Below, piece after piece: positions 46,892 to 54,287 of a DNA stretch of 64,000 nt; within the stretch, counting starts at the first letter, position 1; the number at the start of each line of letters is the position of its first letter. The stretch spans positions 2,015,908 through 2,079,907 of the forward strand of contig NZ_KN150747.1 of NCBI RefSeq assembly GCF_000754815.1. Direction: 5' to 3'. This DNA is from Yersinia ruckeri ATCC 29473. Lineage in GTDB: Bacteria; Pseudomonadota; Gammaproteobacteria; Enterobacterales; Enterobacteriaceae. A program made the translations under genes and the position numbers. The notes beneath the pieces are model-generated. The model did not search any database. It saw nothing but the letters and a program-made list of their open reading frames with translations, and was not told the origin of the DNA.

Positions 46892-47079
46892 GGGCTAATC
46901 CACAATCGAGCTAACAATACAGCCACTGTAATAATCCTAGATTAAGAAAGCCTTAGGCCAGTTACGGTGGTGAATGGATTTATACCGATGCAGGGGATTG
47001 TCCGCCAGCTTAGTGGGGTATCAGAGTCAATAATGTTGGTGAAAAATAGGTTTTTTTTACTTTTTAGGTGAAGAACGCA

Positions 47080-47105
47080 AATTCTAGACAAGAAAAAAAC
47101 CGATA
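47080..47105. repeat. Prophage attachment site, left copy (attL)
   Basis: This 26-bp block matches 54262-54287 at 24 of 26 positions (mismatches at the 6th and 20th bases). It lies 75 bp beyond the 3' end of the integrase gene, the expected attL position in 186/P2-type prophages. The matching right copy is the terminator end of rybB. Confidence 0.85.
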
Positions 47106-47180
47106 CTCTAACAAGTCCATATAAAACAATAATATATAATGTAAACAAAGAGTTGATTGTTTAGTAAGGGTTAGCAAGGA

Positions 47181-48229
47181 CTAGGGAAGATCAACTTGCG
47201 CCGCCACTTTGTCGCCAGTGTTCATGGTAGCCAGCGGATTGAATAATACGGCGGTCTCAAGGTGTTCCGGTGCCAGGTGAGCATAGCGCATGGTCATTTG
47301 AATATCACTGTGACCGAGGATGCGTTGCAGTACCAGAATGTTACCACCGGACATCATAAAGTGTGCGGCGAAAGTATGGCGCAGAACGTGAGTTAATTGG
47401 CCTTTGGGTAACTTAATATCGGTGGAGTTAATCGCCGCCATGAAACGAAAATAGCATTCACTGAAAAGTTGGTCGCCTTTAATTTTTACAAGTTCGTCGT
47501 GCAGTGCTTTGCTGATCGGTACGCTGCGGTTCTTTTTGCCTTTGGTTCTGACAAAGGTAATTTTATGTGGGCTGATTTGCGAACGAGTCAATTTCTCCGC
47601 TTCATTCCATCGTGCGCCGGTGCTTAGGCAAACTTTGACCACCATCGGCAAATCATTACGGCCTAAACTACAGGCGGCTAATAGGGTTTCGATTTGCTCA
47701 TGAGTCAACCAGGCCTTTCCTTTTCAGCAATTGCGTACTTGCGCATATTGTCTAATGGGTTCGGTAGGTTCCATTCTCCTAGTTTTGCCAGCTCATTAAA
47801 CATCGCATTCAAATAACTTTGTTCCTGATTCACCGTCACCGGCTGCGCGCCTTTTTTCCATTTTTCGGAATAGTAGATATCCCCGGACAGGCGTTTAGAA
47901 CGATAGTGGGCAAAATCTTTCGCGTTAAAACTATGAGCGGCGGGATCACCTAGGGCATCAACAATAAGATCCAGCTTTTTATACACCTTATCGCCAGCGG
48001 CCAGCGAACGACCGTGGAGGTTATACCAAAGCTTAGCCAGTTCACCGAGAGTGCGGCGATCGGGTGCTTCCCCTAACCACGGCTTGTTGTTTACCTGTTC
48101 CATAGTGAAGCGTTCAAATGCCAGTGCTTCACCTTTGGTCGCAAACATTTTTCTAACCCGGCGACCTGTGCGGCCTGCCGGGTAGCACTCACATAGCCAT
48201 TGACCTGTTGGTTGCTTGCGTACTGACAT
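47181..48229 (-). pseudogene. int: 186/P2-type phage integrase (tyrosine recombinase), frameshifted
   Basis: Two frames together make a complete integrase of about 349 residues. The first (48229-47705, 174 codons) holds the arm- and core-binding domains and ends RKYAIAEKERPG. The second (47708-47181) holds the catalytic domain with STGARWNEAE (Arg), HVLRHTFAAHF (His-x-x-Arg) and LGHSDIQMTMRYAHL (His, Tyr nucleophile). In the other frame the junction reads AWLTHEQIE, the expected continuation, so one base has been lost at about 47714-47724. The start is preceded by a normal leader. The protein would be inactive. Confidence 0.88.
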
Positions 48230-48330
48230 TGAGAACTCCCTTGAAAGATAAGGGAGTATTTAACTGTATGAATGAACAGTGGTCAATGTGTTTTTTTTAT
48301 AAAATAAACATTTGATAATAAATTTATCTG

Positions 48331-49767
48331 TCAATCTATTGGATCACAGATATTACGACAGGGGTTATTAAGTGTATAGAAATCACAATAATTATCTGAT
48401 AAGGAGAGTATCTTTATAATTACTCTGTTGCACATGACTCTTAGAACTTTATTTTCTCTTATCAGTGAGATGTAATCTGCATTAGGCGTTTTATTGCCAT
48501 GTGCGGCATCATGTCTACGTTTATATGAATTCTTTTCAATCTCTCCTAAATTAATCCCTATAACTTCAAAAAATCTCTTTGTTTGTATGTCTTGTGGCGT
48601 GTTATTTAAATTGCTTATTTTGTTTCTCAAAATAGATAATGCACTTTCATCTATTTCATTTATGTTTTCTATAGCATTATCCAATGATAAACTTATTTCT
48701 TTCCACTTCTCGCTAGTAACTAGTTTAGTTGAAAATGAAGATTTGTGCTTTTTAATATAGGCTTTCTGTGTAAATTCTAAGACAGCACCAAAACAAACTG
48801 CCTGTAAATGGATTGGGGCAATGATTGCATGGAAATAAAGCCATAAGATATGAGGGATTTCATTTTGTTCATATTTAAAAATAAAATTAGAGATGAAGTT
48901 TTCAATTGTTTTTTTGTCGATTAACAAATATATAGCATTACTTTCGGCAAGTGAACAAGGGGGTAGTTTGGGTTCTTTAAAAAAAAGTCCATTCATTGTG
49001 TTTGGTGTAATGGCTTCTTTTGATATTATTTTATGTTCAATATCTAAAATAATATTACCTATATATATTATTTTACTGCCAACCATAAAAGAAAGGGCAT
49101 CTATAAATTTCGAGCGGAATTCATCGCTTGCTTTTCCTTTGTAAAGGATAAATCCAGGGCTAAAAGTATTATCAATATTACAGTCTAATGCTTTCCCAAA
49201 GTAAATATCTATTCCCTCAATTGTTATGTGGCAGCAACTCATCGAACTTCCACAACTAGTAGTATTAGATAAGAAAGTTAATGGTTCTTGAGAGCCTATT
49301 TTATTAATTAGTTCTTCATTGGTAAGTGTTTCTATGCTTTCTGGCCAAGGATAAGAGCCAAGTCCAATATTTAGAACCCACTCTATGAAAAATTCTGGCT
49401 CTAATGATGGATTAACTAATGCTTTAAGTTTATCTACTTTTAGTTGGGTAGTGATTTTACGGCTTCCATCATCAACTTGTTTAGCATTTAAATTTACAAT
49501 CGTCAAACCAGATAAACTAAGCTCTTGACCATCTATATTTTTGAAATTAGCTGTAGTATTATTATATTCAACAGTCCCTAATGGTTTTTTTGTTTGTTGA
49601 TATTGATGTATATCATAGTCACTATATAAACAATTCATGGTGAGTTCATAACTATCATTTCTTTTTATTTCATATGAAATGATGTTTTTATGAATGATAT
49701 CACTACATGTGAGATTTTTAAAATTCTTGCCAAAATCGTCTATATATTCCCATTGGAAGTATTTCAT
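48331..49767 (-). CDS. Prophage cargo protein with HEPN RNase-like C-terminus, candidate ApeA-type abortive infection protein
   Basis: 478 aa, very AT-rich (many Ile, Asn, Lys) against its neighbours. GGAG lies 5 nt before the ATG. The C-terminal helical region ends in RRHDAAHG, an R-x4-H motif (Arg418, His423) typical of HEPN ribonucleases; the N-terminal part is beta-rich with a cysteine cluster (Cys172, Cys178, Cys179), as in large-N-domain ApeA-like proteins. No clear membrane segment. It lies 26 bp after CI on the same strand and before int, so it would be made from the lysogenic transcript. HEPN membership is inferred from one motif and layout; the exact family is unsure. Confidence 0.6.
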   Translation of the reverse strand: MKYFQWEYIDDFGKNFKNLTCSDIIHKNIISYEIKRNDSYELTMNCLYSDYDIHQYQQTKKPLGTVEYNNTTANFKNIDGQELSLSGLTIVNLNAKQVDDGSRKITTQLKVDKLKALVNPSLEPEFFIEWVLNIGLGSYPWPESIETLTNEELINKIGSQEPLTFLSNTTSCGSSMSCCHITIEGIDIYFGKALDCNIDNTFSPGFILYKGKASDEFRSKFIDALSFMVGSKIIYIGNIILDIEHKIISKEAITPNTMNGLFFKEPKLPPCSLAESNAIYLLIDKKTIENFISNFIFKYEQNEIPHILWLYFHAIIAPIHLQAVCFGAVLEFTQKAYIKKHKSSFSTKLVTSEKWKEISLSLDNAIENINEIDESALSILRNKISNLNNTPQDIQTKRFFEVIGINLGEIEKNSYKRRHDAAHGNKTPNADYISLIRENKVLRVMCNRVIIKILSLSDNYCDFYTLNNPCRNICDPID

Positions 49768-49793
49768 TTTTACTCCAAAATAAAAGTAAGATG

Positions 49794-50360
49794 TTATTTA
49801 TTTACTATCTCTAAAGTTATTTTATATAGAAAACTGATATCACTCTCTAGACAATCGAAAGAAATATTTCCACCCTCAACTTTTATTTTCCCTCCGGGAA
49901 TGCGAGCTATTTCACGAGTACTAACTTTACCCTCTATATCAACAACCCACTTGCCATCCTGTACCTCATCGAACTTGCGATCAGCAATATAGGTGACATC
50001 ACCATCAAGGATAACAACTGGGTCTTTCAGTCCATCAGGCAAGAACGCCTTATCGAACATATAGAAATTCGAGTCGTAGAGTTTTCCATCTAATAATTTT
50101 TTGCGTGGAATTTGCACGATATCTGTCTGTTGGGCGCTTTCAAACATCACACCTTCACCCGTTGTTAACCAACGCAGCGATGCACCAGTCTCTAAAGCAC
50201 ACTGAATAACCCAATCAGATGGGAATGAATCACGCATATAACGCGTCGCAAGCGTACTTTTCGACACATTCAATTGATCGCAAAGTGCCTGACGGGTTGT
50301 AAAACCATAGGCTTCAACCATGCGCTCAATAGCGCCGCGGCCACCTTTATTTAAATCCAT
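49794..50360 (-). CDS. cI: 186-type phage repressor CI
   Basis: 188 aa (192 in phage 186). The N-terminal helix-turn-helix domain (about 8-65, FTTRQALCDQLNVSKSTLATR) contains CALETGASLRWLTTGEG, the signature of the Phage_CI_repr family, and the C-terminal oligomerisation domain has GKWVVDIEG...SIRE-like and PGGKIKVEGG segments matching 186 CI. Not the lambda type, so no RecA autocleavage is expected; 186 CI is controlled by the Tum antirepressor, which is not seen here. Intact, divergent from the Cox/Apl-like gene. Confidence 0.9.
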   Translation of the reverse strand: MDLNKGGRGAIERMVEAYGFTTRQALCDQLNVSKSTLATRYMRDSFPSDWVIQCALETGASLRWLTTGEGVMFESAQQTDIVQIPRKKLLDGKLYDSNFYMFDKAFLPDGLKDPVVILDGDVTYIADRKFDEVQDGKWVVDIEGKVSTREIARIPGGKIKVEGGNISFDCLESDISFLYKITLEIVNK

Positions 50361-50362
50361 AA

Positions 50363-50440
50363 GATTTCACCGTGTGAACTTTTTTTATTGATGTTCGTTT
50401 ATTGTGATCTTATAGTTCTCATGATTTCAAAATGTGAACT
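50363..50440. promoter_or_regulatory. CI operators in the lysogeny-lysis switch region
   Basis: Two copies of an 18-bp near-palindrome, GATTTCAnnnTGTGAACT, lie at 50363-50380 and 50423-50440, exactly 60 bp apart. The first includes TTCAC-CGT-GTGAA. They fill the CI-Cox intergenic region, where 186 has its pR and pL promoters. Confidence 0.7.
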
Positions 50441-50488
50441 ACTACTATTCGTCACTAATAAGCACTGATAAAAGAGGGATGTTGCACT

Positions 50489-50710
50489 ATGAGACCTAAC
50501 ATTTCAATCACTCTTCTGACCCCCCATGTCACAGTAGAGAAATATAGTGAATTAACGGGGTTAGATTCAGACACCATCAGAGCAATGTTGGCTGATGGCC
50601 GTTTGATTCGCCATCGTCTGCGTAAAGATATGAAACGTGAAAAAGTCATGATCAACATGGCCGCTTTGACCGTAGATGCACTCTCGAACTGTGATGTTGC
50701 AATCGCCTAG
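50489..50710 (+). CDS. Cox/Apl-like phage excisionase-regulator
   Basis: 73 aa with a small winged-helix/HTH-like core (VTVEKYSELTGLDSDTIRAM) and a basic second half (RHRLRKDMKREK). Position, size and divergence from CI fit Apl of phage 186 or Cox of P2, which bind att and switch DNA to promote excision. AGAGGG lies upstream of the ATG. With int broken its recombination role is moot, though it could still repress pL. Confidence 0.75.
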   Translation: MRPNISITLLTPHVTVEKYSELTGLDSDTIRAMLADGRLIRHRLRKDMKREKVMINMAALTVDALSNCDVAIA

Positions 50711-50743
50711 TTCGATATTGCGTTACCGAGAGGGGTATCGACC

Positions 50744-51253
50744 ATGTTTGATTTCGAAATTTCTAAACACCCGCGTTTTGATTCCTCGTGCCGGGCTTTT
50801 GCCCTTAATAACAATTTAGCCAGCGTTGCAGAGCAAATTGGTATGAGGCCGCAGATGCTACGCAACAAGCTCAACCCCGAACAGCCGCACCAACTGAGTT
50901 GCATAGAGTTGTTGGCGTTAACAGACGTCACCGAAGATCCAACCCTGTTAGATGGTTTGCTGGCTCAACTGCAATGCTTGCCCGCTGTGCCAGTGAATGA
51001 AGCCAATCCCGGCAACTTGCCGCTGCATACCCTAAGCGCTACGGCTGCTATCGGCGTGATTGCTGGTGAAACCGTTACGCCTGGTCCTATGACGCAATCC
51101 CGTAGAAACGCCATTCTTGACCGTGCGAATCAGGCCATTCGTGACCTGTCGCTGATTGTTGTATCGGTTGAAGCGCGTTTCCAATCCACGCCAGCACTGG
51201 CCGCCGCCGTTGACATGATCAGCGCCTGCGGTTTGGTGCCCGGCTTGAACTGA
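50744..51253 (+). CDS. cII: 186-type CII regulator
   Basis: 169 aa, the same size as 186 CII, with which it shares the opening MFDFxxSKHPxxDxxCRAFA and the HTH region (LASVAEQIGMRPQMLRNKLN) and NPEQPHQL. In phage 186 CII activates the pE promoter to establish CI synthesis and lysogeny. Intact, 33 bp after the Cox/Apl-like gene. Confidence 0.9.
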   Translation: MFDFEISKHPRFDSSCRAFALNNNLASVAEQIGMRPQMLRNKLNPEQPHQLSCIELLALTDVTEDPTLLDGLLAQLQCLPAVPVNEANPGNLPLHTLSATAAIGVIAGETVTPGPMTQSRRNAILDRANQAIRDLSLIVVSVEARFQSTPALAAAVDMISACGLVPGLN

Positions 51254-51260
51254 GGAATAG

Positions 51261-51482
51261 ATGAAAATTTTCGCTAGATATCTGAAACAACAATCACCCA
51301 GCCCGCAATTAGGCAGTTATGGCCACGGCTGGATTGAATTACCCAACGGTCAACGCTGGCAGCCATGTACCAGCCGAGTGGTGTTTCTAGGGGCGTTACG
51401 TAAACCCGTATTGAAAAACAAGCGTCGCCCGTGGTGGTTCCGTTTAATGGGATTGAAAAGGGGGCGCTATGTCGGGCAATAA
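51261..51482 (+). CDS. fil: Fil-like early phage protein
   Basis: 73 aa with the family pattern SPQLGSYGHGWIELPNGQRWQP followed by a basic end (KRRPWWFRLMGLKRGR). It follows CII by 7 bp as in 186-type phages, where fil causes host filamentation when expressed. Intact, slightly overlapping the next truncated frame. Confidence 0.78.
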   Translation: MKIFARYLKQQSPSPQLGSYGHGWIELPNGQRWQPCTSRVVFLGALRKPVLKNKRRPWWFRLMGLKRGRYVGQ

Positions 51483-51582
51483 CAATAAATGGTTGGCGAT
51501 CATTCGTCACAAAGTGACCGGTAGCCACAGTAAGGTGCGTTTGATATGGGAGCGTCTACCGGCAGAGCATCGGGGGCTTTGA
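51469..51582 (+). pseudogene. Early phage gene truncated by IS insertion
   Basis: A 37-codon frame overlapping the end of fil begins MSGNNNKWLAIIRHKVTGSH and ends ERLPAEHRG before running into the IS end at 51580, which supplies the stop. Such a WERLPxxHR protein follows fil in 186-type phages. Only the N-terminal third or so remains. Confidence 0.6.
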
Positions 51583-51584
51583 TC

Positions 51585-52463
51585 TTACCCACGAACAATG
51601 GACACATGGCTAGCGAGGTTCTGTTTTTCAAATTGTTCCGGGCTAAGACCACCACAGGCACTGTGGCGACGCCAGCGATTGTAATCGCACTCGATATAAT
51701 TAAACACAGTCGTTCGCATCATTTCCCGACTGGCAAAGTGCTCGCCGTGGATACATTCCACTTTCAGTGAGTGGAAGAAGCTTTCCGCACAGGCATTGTC
51801 GTAACAACAGCCTTTGGCGCTCATACTGCCACGCAGATTATGGCGTTTCAGTAAGGTCTGATAATCCACCGAACAGTACTGGCCGCCTCTGTCTGTATGA
51901 ACAATGACATTTTCCGGGCGTTTACGCCGCCACAACGCCATTTGCAGCGCATCGCAGGCCAGTTGTGCCGTCATCCGCGAAGACATCGACCAGCCGATGA
52001 CGGCCCGCGACCACAGGTCAATCACCACCGCCAGATAAAGCCAACCTTCGTCTGTACGTAAGTAGGTAATGTCACCCGACCATTTCTGATTTGGCCCACA
52101 GGCGGTAAAGTCCTGCTTCAACAGGTTTTCCGACACCGGCAGGCCATGTTCACGGTAACTGACTGGCCTGAACCGGCGTGAGGCCTTTGCGCGCAGCCCC
52201 TGACGCCTCAGGCTGGCTGCAATGGTTTTGACGTTGTACGCCGGAAGCTCATCAGCAAGACGCGGCGCACCATAGCGCTGTTTGGCGTCATTGAATGCCT
52301 GTCGAACGGCATCATCGCAGACAAGACGGAACTGCTGACGCGGGGTTATCTGATGACGACGCAGACGCCAGGCATACCAGCCACTGCGGGCGACACGGAG
52401 CACTCTGCACATGGCTTTGATGCTGAAATCAGCCTGATGTTTTTCGATAAAGACATACTTCAT
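51585..52463 (-). CDS. IS3-family transposase OrfB, DDE integrase domain
   Basis: 292 aa. HTH_21-like N-terminal part followed by the rve integrase core with the DDE triad in [12 protein letters not shown] (Asp), [10 protein letters not shown] (Asp) and NACAESFF (Glu). Its ATG overlaps the orfA stop (ATGA), so it may be produced by coupling or as an OrfAB fusion by programmed -1 frameshifting, as usual in the family. The stop lies inside the left terminal repeat. No disabling mutation seen. Confidence 0.93.
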
Positions 52464-52759
52464 TTCAGGCGCTTCGCAAAGTATGTCGCGGCCTTTTGGA
52501 GAATAGCCAACTCTTCCTCCCGTTCTGCCAACTGACGTTTGAGCCGGGCATTTTCGGCAGCCAGTTCGCTTTCACGCTCGGATGATGTCAGTTGCTGTTG
52601 TTGTTTGCTTCGCCAGGTATAAAGTTGCGATTCGTAGAGACCGAGTTCGCGCGCGGCTGCGGCCACGCCAATACGTTGAGCGAGCTTAAGCGCTTCGTCC
52701 CGAAAGGCAGGCGTGTGTTGTTTGCGGGGCTTGTTTTTCGTTGCTGATGGTTTAGTCAT
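52460..52759 (-). CDS. IS3-family transposase OrfA, helix-turn-helix protein
   Basis: 99 aa. HTH_Tnp_1 domain ([20 protein letters not shown], then [12 protein letters not shown]) followed by a leucine-zipper-like coiled coil ([20 protein letters not shown]). Binds the IS ends and pairs with OrfB. It overlaps orfB by 4 bp. Confidence 0.93.
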
Positions 52760-52826
52760 GAGTCACCTCTGGGTTAAGAGTTTACTCACTTAGTGCCGTG
52801 TCCACTATTGCTGGGTAAGATCATTA

Positions 52827-52994
52827 GACCGTTTCTCTTGGTTTAAGGACAGAGATTTAAATTCACATGCTCCTTCACTAGCCACATATGCACGGATGTA
52901 CAAGGTTTTTGAACCAATCTTTAAAGATTTGGATGGGCGCGATTTAGATGTTGATGAGTTAGCCGCTATATTAAATGCCAAAAGATACTCTTGA
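52827..52994 (+). pseudogene. C-terminal fragment of an unrecognised prophage gene
   Basis: A frame open from the IS edge to TGA at 52992-52994 encodes 55 residues including ATYARMYKVFEPIFKDLDGR and ending ELAAILNAKRYS. It looks like a genuine protein end: charged and helical, with a rho-independent terminator right after it. In P2-type genomes the gene before cos is a variable slot (old/tin/fun in P2), so this may be the stump of a lost accessory or defence gene. Its family is not recognised. Confidence 0.5.
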
Positions 52995-53005
52995 TCCGAG
53001 AGCTT

Positions 53006-53030
53006 AAGCCCGCCGCGCGCGGGCTTTTTT
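53006..53030 (+). terminator. Strong terminator after the truncated prophage gene
   Basis: AAGCCCGC (53006-53013) pairs with GCGGGCTT (53019-53026) over a 5-nt loop, running into six T. It supports the upstream fragment as a real gene end. Confidence 0.88.
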
Positions 53031-53040
53031 ACGCCTATCA

Positions 53041-53400
53041 CAAATCACCGCCAGCCGCCTGATACACCACGCAATACCCATGCCACCACACCGCAATAGT
53101 CTAAATGGATCGCGCTCGCCTCGTCCCGCCAGCGCCGCAGAATCCCCACGAAAGAAACGTAATCCCCACGGAAACGGCACTACACCGCACCCGCCTGCAC
53201 ACTTTGCGTTATAAAGTTTTTTCAGTTTTAAATTCCTACAAAACACCCCACCAGCCCGCGCCGTGGCTGGGGCTTTGCAGCGTTTCGCCAACTGAAAAGA
53301 TTGAAAAGAATTTCAGTGAATTTCAGTTTTTGGATCTCGGATTGGATCGCGGGGAAATATTAGTGCGTTGAATTTAAAGGGGATTGTGTAAATCACGTGG
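53041..53400. other. Probable prophage cos region, no gene
   Basis: GC-rich DNA with C-rich segments, unlike the AT-rich flanks. AATCCCCACG occurs at 53141-53150 and 53161-53170, a 20-bp period; CTCGCCTCGTCCCGCC at about 53115-53130 loosely recalls the GC-rich cos end of P2. Its position after the early region and before the missing Q gene is where cos belongs in P2-type phages. A 95-codon minus-strand frame (53291-53004) is of the kind often over-called at such sites and is not counted as a gene. Confidence 0.4.
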
Positions 53401-53523
53401 AATCTCTAAAAACTTTAACAATCTTATTATTGCTATTTGTTCACATTTATAAATGTATTTTTACAGTTGTAAATGTAAAGGCTATATTGATAGCACAAAT
53501 ACAATTAGTTATAGGTGATTCTT

Positions 53524-54186
53524 ATGCAACCTGTTGATGATAATGTTTTTTTGGGTTTGCAGTATAAAGATTTTATTATGACCGTAGCTGTTATTTTAGG
53601 ACCAATTTTGGCTGTTCAAGTGCAAAAATACCTTGAACAATTTAGAGAAAAGAAGAAACGGCGTCTTGAAATATTCAGAACTCTAATGTCAACAAGAGCA
53701 GAAATTCTGAATCGAAACCATGTACAAGCCTTGAATATGATCGACATCGAATTTTATGGTTGGATGATTCCTATCATTAAAACGAGATATCAGAGTCGTG
53801 CTGAACAAGCAGTTACACATGCTTGGAAGATTTATAACGGTCATTTAAACAAATTCATTGAATACGGTGATGCAATCTCTTGGGGTAATAAAAGACAAGA
53901 GTTGCTAACAGATGTTCTCTATGCGATGGCTACTGCACTAGATTATGATTTCGATAAGGTTCAGCTCCAGAGAGACTGCTATAGACCTATGGCTTATGGT
54001 GATCTTGATAACCTTCAGGCTGGTATTGTTACTAGTTTAGGAGAGGTTCTGAAGGGTGAAAGGCCAATTCCGATGAAAATAGTAGAATGGCCCTCGGCTT
54101 CTGAAAGTACGGCTGAAACTAAATACTCAGACCCCAAGCAAGAAAGCCAGCCGACAGACCAAGAAAATAAGAATACTAGTAGCTAA
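53524..54186 (+). CDS. Membrane-anchored unknown protein (DUF6680-like), prophage cargo beside attR
   Basis: The ATG at 53524 with AGGTGA 5 nt upstream gives 220 aa; an in-frame GTG at 53515 overlaps that ribosome site. One membrane helix near the N-terminus (about residues 14-33, FIMTVAVILGPILAVQVQKY) is followed by a basic stretch (REKKKRR) and a helical cytoplasmic region with LMSTRAEILNRNHVQALNMI and IEFYGW, then a hydrophilic tail rich in Glu, Ser and Lys. I associate the STRA...HVxALNxID pattern with DUF6680; function unknown. AT-rich, isolated, last gene before attR; a superinfection-exclusion or defence role is a guess from position. Confidence 0.6.
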   Translation: MQPVDDNVFLGLQYKDFIMTVAVILGPILAVQVQKYLEQFREKKKRRLEIFRTLMSTRAEILNRNHVQALNMIDIEFYGWMIPIIKTRYQSRAEQAVTHAWKIYNGHLNKFIEYGDAISWGNKRQELLTDVLYAMATALDYDFDKVQLQRDCYRPMAYGDLDNLQAGIVTSLGEVLKGERPIPMKIVEWPSASESTAETKYSDPKQESQPTDQENKNTSS

Positions 54187-54261
54187 TTCTTTGTTGCTGC
54201 CGCCATTCCATCGCCAATGGCAATGCAAAGTGCTCGTAACGTATTGATAGATAAGAGATTG

Positions 54262-54287
54262 AATTCCAGACAAGAAAAAACCCGATA
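54262..54287. repeat. Prophage attachment site, right copy (attR), within the rybB terminator
   Basis: The 26-bp partner of 47080-47105. It covers the T-tract and the base of the 3' stem arm of the rybB terminator, so integration leaves the sRNA with a working terminator. This parallels phages that integrate in the 3' ends of tRNA or ssrA genes. Confidence 0.85.

Follow-up and report, generated by a model that had tools for sequence, protein, structure and literature searches.

The window considered here is a stretch of 64,000 nucleotides from Yersinia ruckeri ATCC 29473, in which an open reading frame (ORF) lying within the lysogeny module of a prophage remnant is a candidate for encoding a HEPN-type anti-phage protein of 478 residues, based on the ORF itself, its homologues and the conservation of residues across them. 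The ORF (48331-49767, minus strand) comprises 478 codons, starts with ATG, ends with TGA and includes no internal stop codons, whereas no ORF of more than 146 codons arose when the region was subjected to 1,000 mononucleotide shuffles. The start codon is preceded by a GGAG ribosome-binding site. The gene encoding the CI repressor (49794-50360, minus strand; matching PF07022 at an expectation (E) value of 5e-31 and PF16452 at 3e-34) ends 26 bp upstream of the candidate gene, while the integrase gene (int) begins 101 bp downstream, with all three genes found on the minus strand. The int sequence is split between two ORFs, corresponding to the N-terminal (47705-48229, minus strand; PF24624, 1e-32) and C-terminal (47181-47708, minus strand; PF00589, 1e-21) portions of the enzyme. 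The G+C content of the candidate gene is 30.2%, as compared to 47.6 and 47.9% in the chromosomal regions flanking the element on the left and right, respectively. The ORF check and these values thus bear out the initial annotation, which described an AT-rich, intact gene of 478 residues situated between CI and a broken int and co-directional with CI.

In phage 186, CI and int are found on a common transcript. Because the counts returned by a promoter and terminator scan were at the level of shuffled sequence (12 vs. 11.8 and 2 vs. 1.3, respectively, with neither of the two terminator-like sites being on the minus strand), the proposal that the candidate gene and CI are co-transcribed rests on gene spacing.

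A rare protein family and its HEPN signature

Using tblastn, full-length homologues sharing 25-26% identity with the window protein were identified on Komagataeibacter nataicola and Cupriavidus pauculus plasmids. A profile search added homologues in Pseudomonas, Phenylobacterium and Caulobacter, and the Cupriavidus protein, when used as query, returned a half-length match on Leptospira plasmids and, in addition, led to a viral contig. Further members were obtained from additional genomes. Identity to the window protein across 11 aligned homologues was 15-28%. The family is rare and patchy, being detected in one of 60 relatives and one of 369 genomes of the class (the genome considered here in both cases), as well as in three of 398 genomes of the phylum, again including this genome. 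Within the family of G712, two of 249 genomes were positive (neither being new), as were five of 249 in the family containing the Cupriavidus loci (counting the two genomes in which these loci are found). Of the 29 genomes in the G704 family, G704 alone was positive, while the six detections among 348 genomes of the L005 genus include the genome of L005 itself, a weak fragment and a split gene. Peptide-pattern scans of genome and viral collections based on the window protein alone revealed an identical copy in IMG/VR and nothing else.

The active site of HEPN ribonucleases (RNases) is marked by an R-x4-6-H motif, a polar residue following the arginine and an upstream acidic residue (PMC3710099). 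As an R-x4-H sequence arises in 2,081 of 10,000 permutations of the window protein, a lone motif in a single sequence is weak evidence. Conservation was assessed in an alignment of 15 full-length family members, including the window protein. The initial annotation, in which Arg418 and His423 were correctly positioned (codons 48499-48516, minus strand), had made its reading depend on the conservation of these residues in homologues. Both are invariant in all 15 members, and a sixteenth, split copy (G1102) retains the two in its C-terminal ORF. Residue 419 is polar throughout (Asn in 13 members, Asp in one and His in the window protein), while upstream Glu331 is found in 14 members and replaced by Asp in the Leptospira protein. 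As such, all three sequence marks of the HEPN superfamily are seen. The lysine four residues beyond Glu331, corresponding to the typical Ex3[KR] form, is found in the window protein, although some members lack it. Also invariant in all 15 sequences are R36, N133, Y209, G230, W309, N388, E411, A421, G424, R448 and Y460, with W130 being kept in 14. The cluster of Cys172, Cys178 and Cys179 to which the initial annotation also drew attention is indeed present in the window protein but is not conserved, with cysteine occurring at position 178 in six of the 15 members and at positions 172 and 179 in the window protein only. The cluster was accordingly rejected as a metal site.

The conserved columns, together with the profile match described below, delineate a predicted C-terminal HEPN domain spanning approximately residues 285-478 (48334-48915, minus strand) and including Glu331, Asn388 and Glu411. 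The remaining N-terminal region (approximately residues 1-284; 48916-49767, minus strand), a presumed sensor, holds invariant R36, N133, Y209 and G230 and no recognised domain; just as the initial annotation assigned it to no familiar family, no Pfam match was found. When the window protein was compared with PADLOC-DB 2.0.0 (5027 models) and NCBIfam, no matches were obtained at E values up to 10, while the PHROGs returned a single match at E 0.12, such that Pfam, PHROG, NCBIfam and PADLOC all contained no match at E < 0.1. Likewise, homologues P0002, P0003, G704, L033 and that of Leptospira yielded no PADLOC-DB 2.0.0 matches.

The relation of the family to the defence protein ApeA was considered using Pfam models and profile comparison. 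Eight full-length homologues were scanned against Pfam (P0002, P0003, L013, L010, L029, L030, L031 and L033), with six full-length members lying outside the scan. Two of the eight matched HEPN_Apea (PF18739), at E 9e-4 (20.1 bits) and 3e-4 (21.5 bits), scores below the cut-off of 24.4, while ApeA_NTD1 (PF18862) was matched by neither the window protein nor any of the eight homologues. A control ApeA matched ApeA_NTD1 and HEPN_Apea at E 6e-36 and 2e-32, respectively. Hence, neither the window protein nor the eight scanned homologues present the above-cut-off HEPN_Apea match and the ApeA_NTD1 domain by which ApeA is recognised. Other weak, below-cut-off Pfam matches were not used, namely, PPE (0.0073; P0003), GASH (0.063; P0002), and HEPN_RiboL-PSP (0.0068) and HEPN_MAE_28990 (0.066), both with G704.

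For profile comparison, seven plasmid-encoded proteins of 444-480 residues found with an ApeA query were aligned, one of which, the control mentioned above, matched both Pfam models. The profile of the HEPN part of the family aligned with that of these seven proteins at P 0.0086, with an HH-suite probability of only 4.7%. The score of 23.6 was reached in none of 200 column shuffles (best score 21.7), and the reversed alignment scored 14.7. In this alignment, the R-x4-H motif is in register, and the asparagine invariant in each of the two alignments pairs up. Homology between the N-terminal parts was not accepted, the match there covering 17 columns (score 22.2, reached in none of 60 column shuffles). 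The HEPN part of the candidate family is thus probably related to that of ApeA, with which the window protein shares a single-protein layout, a similar length, a long N-terminal part followed by a C-terminal HEPN domain (predicted here) with R-x4-H, the invariant upstream asparagine and, at the low probability given, a collinear HEPN profile match. The two differ in that the control ApeA matches both Pfam models and the window protein neither, and in that the N-terminal parts share no more than the 17-column match. An ApeA-like branch with no model of its own would fit both the sub-cut-off matches and the HEPN profile comparison, in line with the undescribed branch proposed in the initial annotation. 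RnlA, PrrC and RloC follow the same R-x4-6-H HEPN RNase logic (PMC3710099), yet the window protein found no match to these in the libraries searched and, unlike PrrC and RloC, matched no ATPase domain.

The prophage remnant, its int-CI slot and the neighbours of homologues

Beyond CI, the remnant includes a small regulator at the Cox/Apl position (50489-50710, plus strand), so placed by position, given an HTH_17 match at E 0.15 only, and by the annotation of a gene at the equivalent place in phage 813R9 as Cox. This is followed by CII (50744-51253, plus strand; PF06892, 3e-44), a Fil-like ORF (51261-51482, plus strand; PF10893, 6e-21) and an IS3-type transposase pair recognised by eye (51585-52759, minus strand). 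Based on the Pfam matches of CI, CII and Fil, the module is of the 186/P2 lysogeny type. A DUF6680 protein (53515-54186, plus strand; PF20385, 3e-51), encoded just within the right att site, represents a second cargo gene to which no function was assigned. At the ends of the element are att repeats (47080-47105 and 54262-54287) identical at 24 of 26 positions, the core of which occurs singly in four congeners lacking the element. The element is, therefore, the remnant of a prophage, reduced to approximately 7.2 kb between its att sites and comprising the split int, the candidate gene, CI, the Cox-like gene, CII, Fil, the IS3-type element and the DUF6680 gene. This agrees with the dead prophage of the initial annotation. 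A contig in IMG/VR contains an identical copy of window positions 46900-52759, split int included.

The left flank of the element was matched in all 25 genomes of the genus, including that considered here, and the att place was inspected in six of the other 24. In L063, L064, L067 and L068, the att core was found once in 3.5 kb, directly followed by the right flank, with no match to the element; in L063 and L064, some 700 bp of other sequence separate the end of the left-flank match from the core. In L065 and L066, the att place is occupied by a prophage with an int sharing about 80% DNA identity with that of the window. Two species contain deletion-reduced prophages at a common att site, as seen with congener G016 (L069, 76-5502) and the window (47080-54287). 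Both remnants retain the int-cargo-CI module and a shared right-end stretch of approximately 270 bp, such that these may correspond to defence mini-islands rather than to products of random decay.

The cargo between int and CI varies. In the G016 prophage, this slot holds genes encoding an ATPase and a DUF4276 protein, together a PADLOC HEC-01 candidate (E 2e-208 and 7e-74). The slot in G004 (L070, 6655-8670) encodes a 313-residue protein weakly matching LeoBC/LeoC and a 347-residue protein with no PADLOC match, a pair that presents a candidate for an unknown two-gene defence system. A related CI is encoded in 130 phage records, of which nine were inspected; the slot was found to be occupied in four (KP12, 813R9, YenM_324 and 4LV2017) and empty in five. 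The KP12 and 813R9 slot genes encode a 558-residue protein that carries the same name in both; the KP12 protein matches PD-Lambda-1 (PADLOC, E 7e-120) and contains DUF4041 and T5orf172, yet is unrelated to the candidate protein, with which it shares its place between CI and int. The slot proteins of Yersinia phage vB_YenM_324 (L047, 4576-5274) and Klebsiella phage 4LV2017 (L049, 4567-5616), annotated as hypothetical, yielded no PADLOC matches. As is the case for defence cargo of P2-like prophages, the candidate is thus a variable gene between conserved phage genes, with other defence cargo being found at this place in relatives. The survey of the slot called for in the initial annotation, which had stated that P2-like prophages carry defence genes in fixed slots, is consistent with published descriptions of a cI-int defence hotspot in P2-related phages (the K139 and PhiO18P group; PMC9122126). 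There, defence cargo similarly lies between CI and int, although in Vibrionaceae, whereas the phages considered here are of the 186-like group in Enterobacterales. In addition, seven of 21 newly selected defence systems were located in P2-like prophages, remote HEPN similarity was reported for six of the 21, and one system includes a protein combining DUF4041 with a domain for DNA binding/cleavage (PMC9519451). We infer this last system to be that to which the KP12 PD-Lambda-1 protein belongs.

The neighbourhoods of homologues were tallied over 16 distinct loci, with neighbours being partly scanned. Cupriavidus L004/L006/L007, Phenylobacterium L008/L012, Caulobacter L009/L014/L016/L020 and L005/L021 were each counted as a single unit, L002 was merged with the window, a single record was taken from the six of Leptospira, and a weak fragment with stop codons (G1231) was excluded. 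A named defence system adjoins the homologue at four loci. In L029, the homologue lies 55 bp after KwaB of an upstream KwaA-KwaB pair, on the same strand. In L031, the upstream genes are QatA-QatB-QatC, with the homologue beginning 36 bp after QatC on the same strand. In L013/L015, a CD-NTase gene is found 77 bp upstream on the same strand, and the pair PDC-M01A and PDC-M01B of PADLOC, made up of a PtuA-like ATPase and a partner protein, is encoded beyond the homologue. Another CD-NTase, accompanied by a 2TM-SAVED effector, is found close by. In L032, a retron RT-Toprim adjoins a split copy. PADLOC candidate genes on the opposite strand adjoin the homologues in L030 (FRG, PDC-S15) and L005 (DUF2971, PDC-S31). 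Four of the 16 loci correspond to prophages or phage remnants, these being the window, L033 (with P2-type GpU/GpD and GpA genes), L032 (where an int fragment shares 49% identity with the window int over 133 residues) and L030 (where genes for tail and capsid proteins were recognised by eye), while three of the 16 are plasmid-borne. Homologues are, therefore, found on plasmids, in prophages and beside defence systems, answering the proviso of the initial annotation that homologues occur near mobile elements.

Several of these loci present additional features. The usual place of QatD is after QatC, and it is at this position that the HEPN gene is found in L031 (8117-13624). In the P2-like prophage of L033 (3899-7069), an ORF of 1056 residues judged by eye to be autotransporter-like separates the GpU/GpD-type gene from the HEPN gene. 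The gene preceding the Cupriavidus homologue (L004, 8793-9767) gave a sub-cut-off match to Mrr restriction endonuclease (E 0.0056) and none in PADLOC.

A probable ApeA-like defence protein and the alternatives

Because the family shares an invariant RNA-cutting signature and several members lie beside known anti-virus systems, the candidate is probably an undescribed relative of ApeA. We consider it likely that it acts as a one-protein, prophage-borne HEPN RNase of ApeA-like layout that arrests infected cells. What is shown here comprises the gene and its place, the family to which it belongs, with an invariant motif, and the fact that members are associated with defence genes as well as with mobile elements; together with the slot, these support the HEPN anti-phage reading of the initial annotation, with anti-phage activity and expression in the lysogen being inferred.

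Several observations weigh against this assignment or limit what can be said for it. Among the 25 genomes of the genus, the gene was found in that considered here only, and the window protein was unmatched in all 50,697 phage records, as were two homologues. The window protein returned no HEPN or other Pfam match at E values up to 1, and six of the eight scanned homologues gave no match to HEPN_Apea. Searches of solved structures with the window protein remained at chance level (antibody matches near residues 112-206, at E 0.07 and worse, were discarded), and a search based on the ApeA profile for a relative of ApeA with a solved structure likewise yielded chance matches only. The full-length profile comparison with ApeA was weak (P 0.091; HH-suite probability 0.6%), and the probability attached to the comparison of HEPN parts was, as noted above, low. 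As a raw count, a defence or mobile sign is seen at 11 of the 16 loci, and at the other five (L008, L009, L074, L075 and L076) no such sign was seen in the parts inspected. Separately, the intactness of the gene beside a decayed int, offered in the initial annotation as a sign of selection, is unspecific since CI, CII and Fil are likewise encoded by intact ORFs, and this argument was dropped; as the single second copy seen is identical, dN/dS could not be determined.

In the proposed mechanism, the candidate protein would be prophage cargo made in the lysogen together with CI, as spacing and strand suggest. The C-terminal third would serve as a HEPN ribonuclease, given its invariant R-x4-H, upstream acidic residue and similarity to the HEPN domain of ApeA. 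By analogy to ApeA, the N-terminal part of approximately 284 residues may hold the RNase off and sense a product of phage infection. Once released, a dimer would cut RNA, with tRNA or mRNA of the host being the probable target, and the infected cell would stop ahead of phage release, i.e., would undergo abortive infection. According to the title of a preprint cited in PMC13405049, ApeA is activated by deoxydinucleotides, and a similar signal is possible for the presumed sensor of the candidate. PMC13405049 itself reports a retron HEPN effector that degrades tRNA, with the exact tRNA target being left open there.

Other explanations for the gene were also considered. Many HEPN proteins are toxins of toxin-antitoxin pairs (PMC3710099), and the candidate could similarly stabilise the prophage, with the HEPN part being the toxin and the product of a neighbouring gene the antitoxin. 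In agreement, the homologue from Komagataeibacter is abutted on its plasmid by a 95-codon ORF, and a gene for a VapC toxin lies just ahead. Still, no small partner recurs, the upstream gene in the loci listed being CI, KwaB, QatC, CD-NTase or unrelated, and the long N-terminal part is more in the style of a sensor-effector protein, rendering this explanation improbable. It is even less credible that the product lacks RNase activity and serves the lysogeny module as a regulatory or exclusion protein of the phage. While the position between CI and int would be appropriate for such a protein, homologues reside on plasmids and beside defence operons. Moreover, as the slot is empty in five of the nine phages and occupied by unrelated genes in the other four, no fixed regulatory role can be ascribed to it.

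The remaining alternative overlaps with the assignment of the candidate as an ApeA-like RNase and holds that the family provides a detachable helper or extra effector of the preceding defence operon (Kiwa, Qat or a CBASS cyclase), working with a host factor when alone in the prophage. The short same-strand distances to KwaB, QatC and CD-NTase are as would be expected of such an arrangement. Yet an operon lies directly upstream in only three of the 16 loci, the window copy follows CI, and adjacency need not imply joint action because defence genes cluster in any case. On balance, this is unlikely, if less so than a toxin-antitoxin pair. A broader proposal, namely, that this unnamed HEPN family includes both stand-alone, phage-triggered RNases and plug-in effectors (as a third Kiwa gene, after QatABC at the usual place of QatD or as the effector of a two-gene CD-NTase system (CBASS)), in which the N-terminal part would read a nucleotide signal, is likewise considered unlikely.

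Among the matches listed in the open-licence literature, supplements being outside the scope of the search, no description of the family was found. HEPN systems that await characterisation have been noted in P4 satellites (PMC9122126). A Y. ruckeri pan-genome study (PMC10174560) reports prophages, with restriction systems within them, and its main text contains neither of the words HEPN and ybjL. The family is new to the libraries searched, although the kind of system is already known.

If the candidate is indeed an ApeA-like defence RNase, it would represent an anti-phage family undetected by the copies of Pfam, NCBIfam, PHROG and PADLOC searched, ranging from alpha-, beta- and gammaproteobacteria to Leptospira plasmids. 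In three genomes, a member directly follows genes of Kiwa, Qat or CBASS, which would make it possible to test whether HEPN RNases act as back-up effectors that several systems share. In Enterobacterales, the slot between int and CI of 186-like prophages would be a place in which to seek further defence genes.
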